Positions 619 to 26,205 of a stretch of 26,205 bases of DNA are shown piece after piece. Source of the stretch: Candidatus Bathyarchaeota archaeon (GTDB lineage Archaea > Thermoproteota > Bathyarchaeia > TCS64); NCBI GenBank assembly GCA_014730055.1, contig WJIV01000102.1, positions 1 through 26,205 on the forward strand, in the 5' to 3' direction. The notes beneath the pieces were generated by a model. The model searched no databases, was not told the DNA's origin, and worked only from the letters and a program-made list of their open reading frames with translations. Both the position numbers and the translations under genes were made by a program. Each line of letters starts with the position of its first letter. Position 1 is the stretch's first letter.

Positions 619-1561
619 TTCTACTTTTTTCCTCATCTATAGTCTCGGACAGTTCTGTCTTACCGTACATCTCTCTTAATCGGTCTTCAGGTAGAAACTC
701 AAGCTCCCTCCTTCGCCAACTGCTAACTCCAATGATTACATTGAACTCGTCCCAAGTTACTCCTCTTTTCGATATCTGTTCCCATGAATTTGCCCTTTTA
801 AGCTCGTTTAATGAGTCTTGCATTGCTTTAACAGCTGGGTAAAGGCATATCATAGGTACTGAAAGGTACTTGACGCCAAGCCTCTCCAGTTCATCGAGTG
901 AGAAGGAGGGGGTTTTTCCACCTGGAATTATGTTAAATGCAAGGTGTCCCGGTACTTTCTTGACAAGCTCCTTTACCTCACTAATTTTTTGAGGTGCCTC
1001 AACATAACATAATTAGCTCCAGCTTTGGCGTAGTTTATAGCCCTTTTTAAGCATTCTTCGAACCCCTTGATGCTCCTCGCATCTGTCCTTGCGCCAATAA
1101 CCATATCGATACCAGTATCATCCTTAGCTTTGATGGCAGCTCTGATCCTTTGTATCATCTCTTCCTCAGGGATGACCTCCTTTCCTGACATGTGTCCACA
1201 CCGTTTTGGCCATACCTGATCCTCCAGTCTTACACTTGCCGCCCCTATCTTCGCGAAATTAAGAACGGTCCAATATACATTCAAAGCGTTCCCATATCCC
1301 GTGTCGATATCAACATCGACAGGTAGGTCTACGGCATTAACAATTGTTCGTGTCCTTTCCAACATCTCATGATAACCAATAAGCCCCATATCTGGTTAGA
1401 CCAATGAGAGAGGCGCTTATACCATAACCAGTAGTACCTACGACGCTAAAACCAGCTCTCTTTATTAATATAGCAGATAGAGCGTCATAAGCACAAGGAC
1501 GCAGGAGAAGTCCTTCCGTGTTAAGTAAATCTCTAAAGATTTTACCCTTGGACGTGTTCAT
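608..1561 (-). pseudogene. Isocitrate lyase/PEP mutase-family gene, two single-base frameshifts
   Basis: Three consecutive pieces of one protein lie in different frames: N-terminal 1561-1397, central 1395-1002, C-terminal 1000-608. Joined, they give about 317 residues, near the family norm of ~290-300. The first junction has one surplus base near 1396; skipping it turns SLIGL into SLIGLPDMGL, as relatives have. The second lacks one base near 1001-1002; restoring it gives an EAPQKISEVKELV continuation. Motifs include DIDTGYGN, EDQVWPKRCGHMSGK (the KRCGH catalytic loop of methylisocitrate and dimethylmalate lyases) and ARTDA. The family cleaves or forms C-C or P-C bonds in small 2-hydroxyacids; KRCGH favours a lyase over PEP mutase. 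The gene is either a recent pseudogene or intact with two assembly errors. A TATA element sits 25 bases upstream of the ATG. Confidence 0.85.
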
Positions 1562-11453: not shown

Positions 11454-12944
11454 ATGGGAGTGCTTGAAGAGCCGATAAGAGAAGAGATAGAGCTGAATAA
11501 CTATATCAATGGAGAGTGGATCGAATCCGAGTCATCGGAAGTAAAACAAATATTTAATCCAGCGACACTGAAACCCTTGGCTAAGGTGCCGATTGGTCAC
11601 AAAGATGATGTTAAGGCCGCGGTTGATGCCGCGGTTGATGCCTTCCCCGGGTGGAGGCGTACGACACCACTGACCAGGTCCCGTTACCTCTTGAGACTGG
11701 TTCAGCTTCTCGAGGAAAACTTTGAGGAGCTTTCAAGGGTCATAACCATGGAACATGGTAAAATTATCGATGAGGCACGTGGGGAAATAAGGAGGGGAAT
11801 AGAGAATGTTGAGACCGCTGTCGGAATACCCAGCCTTATGATGGGCTATAACCTAGAGGACATAAGCAGCGGGATAGACGAGATAGTTGTAAGACAGCCC
11901 CTTGGCGTTTTCGCTTGTATAGCCCCATTTAACTTCCCATTCATGGTCCCCCTCTGGTTCCTCCCGTACGCCGTAGCTACAGGGAACACTTACGTTGTGA
12001 AGCCAAGTCCATGGACGCCTCTAAGCATGATGAAACTTGCTGAGCTCATCGACGAGGCCGGTTTCCCTCCAGGAGTAGTCAACTTTGTTAACGGTGAAGT
12101 GGAACCGGTAACTGCTATACTCGAGCATCCGGACGTCAGAGGAGTCAGCTTTGTAGGTTCCACACATATCGGCAAGGACATCATCTACAGTGAGGCTGCT
12201 AAGCGAGGTAAACGGGTTCAAGCTCAGTGTGGTGCAAAGAATTTCTTAGTTGTTCTCCCTGATGCTGATATGGGGCTAACTGTCTCCTCCCTGATGTCCA
12301 GCTTCTTCGGCAACACCGGTCAGAGGTGCCTTGCAGGGGCTAACCTAGTGCTAGTTGGAGGCGATAAATCTTTCAACGATTCGCTGCTGGAAAATATCCA
12401 AAATAGCGCCGATAGCATCAGGATCGGCTACGGTCTTGAGCAGGGTATTCAGATGGGGCCTCTTCAGGCGGAACACCGAAAGAAAAGAGTTGTAGGTTAC
12501 ATAGAGTCAGGGTTAGAGGAAGGTGCTGATCTATTAATGGACGGGAGGGATTTCGATAGCTCTGGCTATCCCGAGAAAAATTTCCTAGGGCCCTCGATAT
12601 TCACAGATGTTTCACTGAATATGTCTATAGCTAAAGAGGAGATATTTGGCCCCGTGATGAGCGTAATGGAAGCGGATAGCCTAGACAAGGCGATAGAGAT
12701 GGTGAACTCCTCAGAGTACGGGAACGCAGCTAGCATATTCACACGTGATGGGGGGAATGTCAGGAACTTCCAGTACAACGTCGAGTGTGGGAACATAGGA
12801 GTAAACATAGGAACAGCAGCCCCCATGGCCTTCTTTCCCTTCAGCGGGATGAAAAACAGTTTCTTCGGAGACCTCCATGGACAGGGAAGAGACGCTGTAA
12901 GGTTCTTCACTGAGGACAAGGTAGTCATCCAGCGGTGGCCTTAA
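11454..12944 (+). CDS. mmsA: Methylmalonate-semialdehyde dehydrogenase (CoA-acylating)
   Basis: A 496-residue aldehyde dehydrogenase matching the MMSDH subgroup: NYINGEW at the start, the IPSLMMG region, the oxyanion Asn in FNFPF (N160), VGSTHIGK, QAQCGAKN in place of the ELGGK general-base motif, GNTGQRCLAGA with catalytic C292, and the C-terminal FFGDLHGQGRDAVRFFTEDK. Loss of the general-base Glu is characteristic of CoA-acylating members. Expected reaction: (methyl)malonate semialdehyde + CoA + NAD+ to propionyl- or acetyl-CoA + CO2 + NADH. The 3' end overlaps the next gene's ATG (TAATG), so translation is coupled. A class III aminotransferase that could supply the semialdehyde is convergent downstream. 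Related acylating dehydrogenases for other semialdehydes are the alternative. Confidence 0.88.
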   Translation: MGVLEEPIREEIELNNYINGEWIESESSEVKQIFNPATLKPLAKVPIGHKDDVKAAVDAAVDAFPGWRRTTPLTRSRYLLRLVQLLEENFEELSRVITMEHGKIIDEARGEIRRGIENVETAVGIPSLMMGYNLEDISSGIDEIVVRQPLGVFACIAPFNFPFMVPLWFLPYAVATGNTYVVKPSPWTPLSMMKLAELIDEAGFPPGVVNFVNGEVEPVTAILEHPDVRGVSFVGSTHIGKDIIYSEAAKRGKRVQAQCGAKNFLVVLPDADMGLTVSSLMSSFFGNTGQRCLAGANLVLVGGDKSFNDSLLENIQNSADSIRIGYGLEQGIQMGPLQAEHRKKRVVGYIESGLEEGADLLMDGRDFDSSGYPEKNFLGPSIFTDVSLNMSIAKEEIFGPVMSVMEADSLDKAIEMVNSSEYGNAASIFTRDGGNVRNFQYNVECGNIGVNIGTAAPMAFFPFSGMKNSFFGDLHGQGRDAVRFFTEDKVVIQRWP

Positions 12945-13369
12945 TGCTCCGGACGACCAGTCAGATAATAGATCACTATACAAGAATGGAACAAAAAATT
13001 GAGGGAGATTATACCCTTCTGGCTGATATGTTTCCCGAGTATCGTAACCTATTTCACAAGTACTCCGAGGAGACACGGAAACACAGGGAAAGGGTCGTAA
13101 GAGCATACAGATTCGGAGTGACAGACGCCTACGAGGTTGGGTTCCTATCCAATCCCCTTGAGGTTGATGATTTTAGATTAAAAGACATTGAGGGGGACGA
13201 TCTTTATGAATCTCTTGATTCATTAATCAAAAATGAAGGTAGAGCTGTCAACTTCCTTGAAGCCGCGAAAGAAAGCTCAGGTGATTTAATACCTGACCTT
13301 CACAACAATTTCCAATACGTAACCAAAATGAAAAAACGAAGAATAGAACAGATCGAAAAAATAAGATAG
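12944..13369 (+). CDS. Ferritin-like (rubrerythrin-type) helical protein, degenerate metal site
   Basis: About 141 residues, almost wholly helical. The layout resembles a rubrerythrin-like four-helix bundle: helix 1 around residues 14-38, helix 2 with EETRKHRERV (an ExxxH-like metal motif), helix 3 with KNEGRAVNFLEAA, and helix 4 with YVTKMKKRRIEQIEKI. Helix 4 lacks the expected E-x-x-H ligands, which are replaced by Lys/Arg, so a diiron site would be incomplete. There is no rubredoxin domain. The ATG sits in TAATG with the mmsA stop, a strong coupling signal; the upstream GTG at 12935 is less likely. Coupling suggests it serves the dehydrogenase, or a protective or chaperone role. The fold assignment is by pattern only. 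Confidence 0.5.
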   Translation: MLRTTSQIIDHYTRMEQKIEGDYTLLADMFPEYRNLFHKYSEETRKHRERVVRAYRFGVTDAYEVGFLSNPLEVDDFRLKDIEGDDLYESLDSLIKNEGRAVNFLEAAKESSGDLIPDLHNNFQYVTKMKKRRIEQIEKIR

Positions 13370-24924: not shown

Positions 24925-24933
24925 TTTATATTA
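24925..24933 (+). promoter_or_regulatory. TATA element of the rhodopsin gene
   Basis: TTTATATTA is centred 27 bases before the ATG at 24956, the exact geometry of a leaderless archaeal transcript. The same nonamer serves the MFS gene at 16446-16454. A second TTTATATG at 24881-24888 is a weaker alternative. Confidence 0.55.
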
Positions 24934-24955: not shown

Positions 24956-25564
24956 ATGTCAACGGAAATACTTATATTCCAAGCGGGAGCTGCGTTGTTT
25001 GCTTTAGCGTCGATTTACTTCTTATTCACTGGTGAGAATAAACCTAATTTTAGCACAGAGTTTTTTATTAGCTTTATTACAACAACAAGTTACGCTCTAA
25101 TGAGCCAGAGTTTAGCTGTTACTTTCTCCATGAATGGACAGCCAATATATTGGTCCCGATGGCTTTTCTATATGATTGCCTGCTCATTATTGATGTATGA
25201 TACATCAAGAGTCCTCAAGATAAGCGAGAGAGATTATCCATTTATGGTCTTGCTAACATGGCTAACAATGTTCAATGGTTTTCTCGCAAGCTATATCACC
25301 TCATCCTCAAGATGGATTTTTTATATATTGAGCTCTGTTGCCTATATAGGACTGTTATACTTCGTAATGAAGGGCGAGGATAATCCTGAATTTAAGACTA
25401 TAAAGCCTTTTGTCTTAATAGGTTGGACTTTATTCCCAGTAGTTTTCATATTAGCACCAACTGGAATAGGGTTAATTAATACCAATATTGCAGAAGCGAG
25501 TTATCTTGTCTTGGATGTAGCTACTAAGATAATATTTGGAATACAGACATCAAAAATAAAATAA
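24956..25564 (+). CDS. Microbial (type I) rhodopsin with F-A-D motif
   Basis: A compact 202-residue seven-helix retinal protein. Helix G reads LVLDVATKIIFG: retinal lysine K191 and D187 match bacteriorhodopsin K216 and D212. Helix F has GWTLFPVVF (W157, P161). Helix C reads QPIYWSRWLF then YMIACSLLMYD and aligns without gaps to bacteriorhodopsin from NPIYWAR: R68=R82, F71=D85, Y72=W86, A75=T89, C76=T90, S77=P91, D82=D96. The primary counterion/proton acceptor is therefore replaced by Phe, while the cytoplasmic donor position keeps Asp. E194 and E204 equivalents are Thr and Ala; D115 appears to be Leu. A light sensor, slow photocycle pigment or novel ion function are all open. No transducer or retinal-synthesis gene is in view. 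Classification as a rhodopsin is firm; activity is not known. Confidence 0.93.
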   Translation: MSTEILIFQAGAALFALASIYFLFTGENKPNFSTEFFISFITTTSYALMSQSLAVTFSMNGQPIYWSRWLFYMIACSLLMYDTSRVLKISERDYPFMVLLTWLTMFNGFLASYITSSSRWIFYILSSVAYIGLLYFVMKGEDNPEFKTIKPFVLIGWTLFPVVFILAPTGIGLINTNIAEASYLVLDVATKIIFGIQTSKIK

Positions 25565-25656: not shown

Positions 25657-26205
25657 TTATTCTTTCCAATAATCTCTTTCATCACTGGTTTTAATTATCG
25701 ATTCCACATCGAGCAAATCATCAGGATATGGATTAAAATAACTCTGGTTTTTAAGATAATCTTCATTGAAACGAATAATCCAAGATCTTATTATGTCAAC
25801 TGGCACAATAAGAGGAATCTTACCCTCTCTATATAACTTGAGTTTATCAATGAAATAGTCTCGTTCCTCTTTCTTCAAATCACTACTAAAATAACCCATG
25901 GAGTTCTGAAGTACATTTATATTATTACCATGATCAGGAGCTCTGATCATTACACTTAACAGATGTTCTTTATAATCAGCGTGTACCACATCATAGGGTT
26001 TCTTTTCATGATTTGCCACTATCCTTCCTAAGATCCTCATTTCTACCTGGTTATATGCCTTTAACATTAACTTGTGCCTAGAATGAAAATCTACTAGATC
26101 CTTCATCTGAGTTCCAGTATTTTCTCTGAAATCAGCGAGAAGGAATAACTTTCGAAGAAAATGCTCTCTAATAACCGGATTCCTCAAACGACCTTCATCT
26201 TCAAC
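25657..26205 (-). CDS. DUF1722 (YbgA-like) protein, N-terminus beyond window
   Basis: The C-terminal ~183 residues of a DUF1722 protein; the frame is open to the window edge. Recognisable blocks are IREHFLRKLF, LVDFHSRHKLMLKAYNQ, the YFSSDLKKEERDYFIDKL region, YREGKIPLIVPVDII and the terminal YLKNQSYFNPYPDDLL. They follow the YbgA/DUF1722 pattern. A DUF523 domain commonly precedes it but would lie outside. Function is unknown; in bacteria such genes are often next to DNA photolyase (ybgA-phr in E. coli), suggesting a tie to light or UV response. Here it converges on the rhodopsin gene, which strengthens that hint. Confidence 0.82.
   Translation of the reverse strand, partial: VEDEGRLRNPVIREHFLRKLFLLADFRENTGTQMKDLVDFHSRHKLMLKAYNQVEMRILGRIVANHEKKPYDVVHADYKEHLLSVMIRAPDHGNNINVLQNSMGYFSSDLKKEERDYFIDKLKLYREGKIPLIVPVDIIRSWIIRFNEDYLKNQSYFNPYPDDLLDVESIIKTSDERDYWKE

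Follow-up and report, generated by a model that had tools for sequence, protein, structure and literature searches.

A schizorhodopsin-type rhodopsin of probable bathyarchaeial origin with Phe-Ala-Asp in helix C and a candidate pair of cytoplasmic carboxylates

The 26,205-nucleotide stretch analysed here (contig WJIV01000102.1, hereafter the window; its host is probably a member of the Bathyarchaeia) encodes a schizorhodopsin-type rhodopsin with Phe-Ala-Asp (F-A-D) in helix C. We judge it probable, at roughly 60%, that this protein pumps protons inward and that the route of their release is modified. It belongs to a supported clade, designated the FAD clade, whose cytoplasmic side appears to have been rebuilt and which is apparently uncharacterised; the novelty would lie there and not in the Phe.

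Analysis of the rhodopsin open reading frame (ORF) showed that PF01036 (Bac_rhodopsin) is the sole Pfam family above its cut-off (86.9 bits, cut-off 24.6). The frame is uninterrupted and encodes an intact seven-helix rhodopsin, which, together with the conservation of its residues among relatives, rules out a chance ORF or a pseudogene. Alignment with Antarctic rhodopsin (AntR) and schizorhodopsin 4 (SzR4), the two closest solved chains, was ungapped in helix C and placed R68, F71, A75, D82, D187 and K191 at R82, D85, T89, D96, D212 and K216 of bacteriorhodopsin (BR); the SzR4 counterparts are R67, F70, S74, E81, D184 and K188. With E35 at the BR T46 position, the window motif reads E-R-F-A-D-D-K. 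The F-A-D triad with retention of D212 and the retinal lysine, as first read from the sequence, was thus confirmed. K191, D187, W69, Y72, W157 and P161 showed no variation across a 32-row alignment, and no acid besides D187 was found near K191 on any helix. The original prediction would have fallen had a shift of helix C brought an acid to the Schiff base; sequence and structural alignments brought no Asp or Glu there, and a shift of register was ruled out.

The best matches in the Protein Data Bank (PDB) were AntR (9or2, E 5.8e-40) and SzR4 (7e4g, E 2e-32), followed at a distance by the next (E 1.4e-15), and the sequences of both structures carry Phe where BR has D85. The statement that characterised pumps with Phe in place of the acceptor are not known was therefore mistaken, as both proteins are inward pumps. 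AntR is described as such in the available text of PMC9442786, and that of PMC7704677 reports LaSzR2 to be an inward proton pump with Asp184 as presumed counterion. According to the accessible part of PMC13093656, the helix 3 counterion position of schizorhodopsins is taken by a neutral aromatic residue such as Phe or Tyr, and inward pumps commonly share a single negative charge. A homologue search returned 238 proteins, of which the best 120, the window protein included, were examined for the triad. Their triads were F-A-D in 72 (one being the window protein), F-S-E in 33, F-S-D in 4, and F-T-D, F-V-D and Y-S-E in one each, with 8 proteins truncated at one or two sites. Phe occupied the BR D85 site in 111 of the 112 proteins covering it, with Tyr in the other. 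These results show that members of the schizorhodopsin group ordinarily carry Phe at D85, and that their lack of a helix C counterion is normal. The suggestions that D187 (BR D212) is the sole counterion and that an outward pump of the usual kind is unlikely agree with present knowledge of the family. By contrast, the proposed new ion-handling class is not needed to explain the Phe, because schizorhodopsins, which pump inward, have a single negative charge and an aromatic residue (Phe or Tyr) at this position.

Membership in the schizorhodopsin/AntR group is indicated by the neutral aromatic residue Phe71 at BR D85 (compare PMC13093656, in the part cited), by the helix G Asp as sole Schiff-base carboxylate together with the retinal Lys (D187 and K191 in 32/32 rows), and by its place in the tree beside SzR4 and AntR, separate from the other rhodopsins (support 100/100). 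Within this group the window protein stands outside the core containing SzR4 and AntR, in which the helix C Ser and Glu occur in 34/34 rows. We take FSE to be the name of the core motif, the letters of which were seen in the alignment with AntR and SzR4. Glu81 was not treated as defining the wider schizorhodopsin group, because the available text of PMC7704677 reports that it is not conserved among SzRs. Other rhodopsin types were rejected. A BR/proteorhodopsin-type outward pump would have an acceptor carboxylate at D85, where Phe71 stands; a xenorhodopsin would show Asp and Pro at D85 and D212, respectively (PMC7704677 and PMC13093656, both as excerpted), where the window protein has Phe71 and Asp187; and a heliorhodopsin, the type earlier reported in Bathyarchaeota (PMC7110647, as excerpted), does not accord with PF01036 alone passing the Pfam cut-off.

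The main tree comprised 94 rows thinned from 122, with 7 haloarchaeal and chloride-pump rows as outgroup. The FAD clade contained 53 of the 94 rows, the window included (50 FAD, 2 FSD and 1 FTD), with support of 98/93, and together with the SzR/AntR side it split from the outgroup at 100/100. In a quick tree of 92 rows, from which six signature columns and two long outgroup rows had been removed, the FAD clade still formed one side of a branch (SH-aLRT 92). Residues were then compared between the 70 full-length hits (at least 185 aa) ranked above P0086 among the best 120 and an FSE set of 34 rows (SzR4, AntR and P0087-P0120 without P0101 and P0105; neither P0086 nor any row from genomic loci was included). 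Position 35 was Glu in 70/70 FAD-clade rows, as against Ala in 31, Ser in 2 and Asn in 1 of the FSE group; position 82 was Asp in 70/70, as against Glu in 34/34; and position 75 was Ala in 66/70, as against Ser in 34/34. T104 and N107 were likewise present in 70/70 FAD-clade rows, where the FSE group has Val in 34/34 and Thr in 33/34, respectively. These two may be the retinal-pocket positions BR M118 and T121, and a colour shift is therefore possible. No characterised F-A-D member was found in one open-access library by word searches, which are weak, as 'FSE motif' was equally without matches; in the available text of PMC9601134, 'FAD' occurs only within an author name in the references.

Position 35 was placed through two alignments: E35 of the window aligns with an Ile of a haloarchaeal row, and that Ile with the first Thr of the TT in deltarhodopsin helix B, which we take to be BR T46. 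E35, to which the first reading of the sequence did not refer, is the other distinctive part of the protein beside the F-A-D triad, and E35 and D82 would form a pair of cytoplasmic carboxylates where the characterised FSE group has one. SzR4 (37% identity in structural alignment), which like LaSzR2 is from Asgard archaea, has Asn at T46, Ser at T89 and Glu at D96, where the window protein has Glu, Ala and Asp; for LaSzR2 a blue shift on acidification is reported. AntR (38% identity in structural alignment) resembles the window protein in its Phe at D85 and lone Asp counterion, but differs in having Ala, Ser and Glu at the same three positions. The accessible part of PMC12227055 stresses the functional importance of the BR T46 position, which may be Glu in viral rhodopsins and is Arg in CryoRhodopsins. 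CryoRhodopsins thus share a charged T46 position with the window protein, corresponding to E35 by alignment only, and their Arg is salt-bridged to the Glu at the D96 position; unlike the window protein, however, they keep the D85 carboxylate in 38/40 (same source and part).

Acids at position 35 also occur outside the FAD clade, since 10 of 45 SzR-side rows carry one (Asp with FSS in five, with YSD in two and with FSE in one; Glu with YSE in one and with FSE in one), but SzR4, AntR and their nearest rows are without it. The residue pairs at T46/D96 were N/E in SzR4 and nine Asgard genomes, A/E in AntR, E/D in the FAD clade, D/S in five Hermodarchaeota genomes, D/D in two genomes of the order Methanomicrobiales, and E/E in one further genome of the same phylum as the latter. 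The rows from the Hermodarchaeota genomes (L037-L041, the same genomes as loci L003-L007) read D-R-F-S-S-D-K, with Asp at T46 and no carboxylate at D96, as if the cytoplasmic acid had been shifted from helix C to helix B. The identity of the residues governing the direction and speed of inward proton release is a live question, and such T46/D96 rearrangements provide natural mutants for asking whether inward release needs a cytoplasmic carboxylate.

The residues, predicted fold, clade and conservation are established, whereas each step of the following course of transport is deduced. Light would isomerise retinal on K191, and, since helix C is without an acceptor, the Schiff-base proton would move to the cytoplasmic side, as in schizorhodopsins. 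The E35/D82 pair, at the BR T46 and D96 positions, would receive or guide this proton and release it inside, after which the Schiff base would be re-protonated from outside. Proton release would then be a two-carboxylate step, where SzR4 has Glu81 and Asn instead. A more specific proposal, which we advance tentatively and hold to be less probable than the pump reading itself, is that the FAD clade is a functionally distinct Phe-type subfamily of anaerobic archaea (probably Bathyarchaeia and Methanomicrobiales) in which Glu35/Asp82 traps the proton, yielding a slow inward pump or photoswitch that uses scavenged retinal. If so, no earlier schizorhodopsin-type protein would, to our knowledge, have a true acceptor for the proton on the cytoplasmic side.

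With respect to carriers, one F-A-D homologue among the matches listed (P0022, 70% identity) is labelled Thermoproteota archaeon; in the window itself, a PINc/VapC ATPase has its nearest named relative in a Candidatus Bathyarchaeota archaeon (78% identity), and a TFIIB gene is present. Schizorhodopsins have already been reported in Bathyarchaeota from Shark Bay (PMC7495880), the same kind of rhodopsin in the same archaeal group as the probable host; the likeness is one of kind, as the available text of that paper gives no helix C motif or function. Another study, as excerpted, called Bathyarchaeota rhodopsins heliorhodopsins and did not find a complete retinal pathway (PMC7110647). A pattern-based scan of GTDB species genomes yielded 7 loci, of which two are FAD; these two lie in a Methanomicrobiaceae metagenome-assembled genome (MAG; contig of 447 kb) and a Methanoculleus MAG (contig of 70.6 kb). 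These two rhodopsin genes (L001:10001-10606 and L002:10001-10606) have a G+C of 0.47-0.49 in loci of 0.59, suggesting that they may be recent horizontal acquisitions. Between the two copies dS was 0.181 (23.5/146 synonymous sites) and dN 0.039 (17.5/460 non-synonymous sites), and synonymous sites were saturated between the window and this pair. In the order of the Methanomicrobiaceae MAG, 4 of 232 genomes matched, two FAD and two YSD; the latter (L029 and L030) read D-R-Y-S-D-D-K, with Tyr replacing Phe at BR D85. Of the 392 genomes in the phylum sample, 52 matched, only G001 (FAD) and G036 (FSE) above 190 bits and the rest at no more than 87.1 bits. The Asgard phylum gave 14 matching genomes of 227 (nine N-R-F-S-E-D-K and five D-R-F-S-S-D-K), and none of the 14 encoded an FAD-type protein. 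A viral origin was rejected, as 72 viral-contig stretches matched the exact peptide patterns used and none encoded a relative.

Genes for retinal supply were sought through three families in 10 schizorhodopsin-type genomes, of which two carry the FAD type. For Blh/Brp (PF15461) the count was 0/10, although it was present in 9 of 10 other-rhodopsin genomes, picked from the high scorers of the phylum sample and presumably haloarchaea (G025 being the exception); these nine served as its positive control. RPE65-type PF03055 was found in 0/10 versus 2/4 comparison genomes, and lycopene cyclase PF18916 in 0/10 versus 2/2. The 14 built-in control genomes contained PF15461 in 0, PF03055 in 2 and PF18916 in 3. 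None of the three families was detected in the two FAD-bearing methanogen MAGs. Cleavage of carotene to retinal needs oxygen; given this and the families not found, retinal probably comes from outside, scavenging being the simplest explanation. A retinal protein in methanogens where these three families were not found raises the questions of the retinal source and of the role of light.

Several points weigh against an inward pump with a modified release route. The window protein departs from the F-S-E motif of characterised pumps (Ala for Ser, Asp for Glu), and no assayed FAD-clade protein was found in the open-access literature searched. The E35/D82 contact is a prediction from BR positions. 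The SzR side had support of only 94/68 in the 94-row tree and was not one group in the quick tree, so that the deep SzR-side split was not relied on; the tree program also warned of an unsettled bootstrap and of the long branches of SzR4, AntR and the outgroup, which may mislead. The FAD clade may be either sister to the SzR side or nested in it. The genomes searched for retinal genes were MAGs or unnamed, of unstated completeness, with two FAD and none the window's own, and the negative covers the three families named above.

The main rival is a light sensor or slow photoswitch, in which the two cytoplasmic carboxylates would hold the proton to give a long-lived blue-shifted signalling state. 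E35 and D82 differ from the characterised pumps in 70/70 rows, and a steady inward proton leak might cost an anaerobe energy. In addition, CryoRhodopsins, with Arg at BR T46, have a very slow photocycle, and at pH 8 the decay of their R57T variant is accelerated about 100-fold (PMC12227055, as excerpted). However, no transducer-like neighbour was seen among the checked genes at the window and two methanogen loci, the window protein has no extra domain, and its relatives pump; we regard a sensor as unlikely. Much less probable is a pump or channel for another ion, the altered motif setting a new selectivity. Although the Ser at T89 is lost (Ala in 66/70 rows) and the exact F-A-D triad found no characterised member in the open-access literature, the T89 position is left without a hydroxyl for an anion site, no NTQ- or TSD-type motif is present (motif list in PMC9601134, as excerpted), and the nearest characterised relatives move protons. 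Equally improbable is an opsin mostly without retinal or light in nature and kept for another reason, for which the retinal families not found and the occurrence of FAD members in methanogens and probably Bathyarchaeia speak. Against it, the invariant lysine, D187, W69, Y72, W157 and P161 point to retinal binding, genes may be absent from a MAG by incompleteness, and scavenging could supply retinal.

The coordinates of the gene and its key codons are given in Table 1; the position of the TATA-like element would fit a leaderless archaeal transcript.

Table 1. Positions of the rhodopsin gene and associated features in the window
Feature	Position	Strand	Evidence
Rhodopsin gene, 202 aa, schizorhodopsin-type	24956..25564	+	ORF, Pfam, solved relatives, structure, motif
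Glu35 codon in helix B, putative BR T46 position, fixed in FAD clade	25058..25060	+	Row alignment
Phe71 codon, BR D85 (proton acceptor) position	25166..25168	+	Alignment
Ala75 codon, BR T89 position (SzR4 Ser74)	25178..25180	+	Alignment
Asp82 codon, BR D96 position (SzR4 Glu81)	25199..25201	+	Alignment
Thr104 codon	25265..25267	+	
Asn107 codon	25274..25276	+	
Asp187 codon, BR D212/SzR4 D184, presumed sole Schiff-base counterion	25514..25516	+	Alignment
Lys191 codon, retinal-binding lysine (SzR4 K188)	25526..25528	+	Alignment
Putative TATA-like element TTTATATTA	24925..24933	+	By eye, about 27 bases upstream of ATG

The rhodopsin gene of the window is flanked by genes for a pyroglutamyl peptidase and a DUF1722 protein, and both methanogen loci have a DAO-Rieske oxidoreductase downstream and an unannotated protein upstream; Thi4 and Bles03-like genes lie near the rhodopsin in L001, the only locus checked for them. 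Among the checked genes, a subset of the neighbouring ORFs, none was common to the window and the two methanogen loci, and the neighbourhood was dropped as a functional clue. The DUF1722 gene (PF08349, 132 bits; 25657-26205, minus strand) converges on the rhodopsin gene and is open at the window end. DUF1722 (YbgA) genes adjoin photolyase genes in some bacteria, and this one could be a light-related neighbour. Elsewhere in the window, an ORF of 144 aa at 12935-13369 (plus strand) overlaps the end of the large ORF 11454-12944 and has no Pfam match at E 1e-5. A short ORF at 973-1389 (minus strand) matches only the middle of the PEP mutase/isocitrate lyase family (PF13714, positions 54-181 of 240) and looks like a truncated or frameshifted gene.
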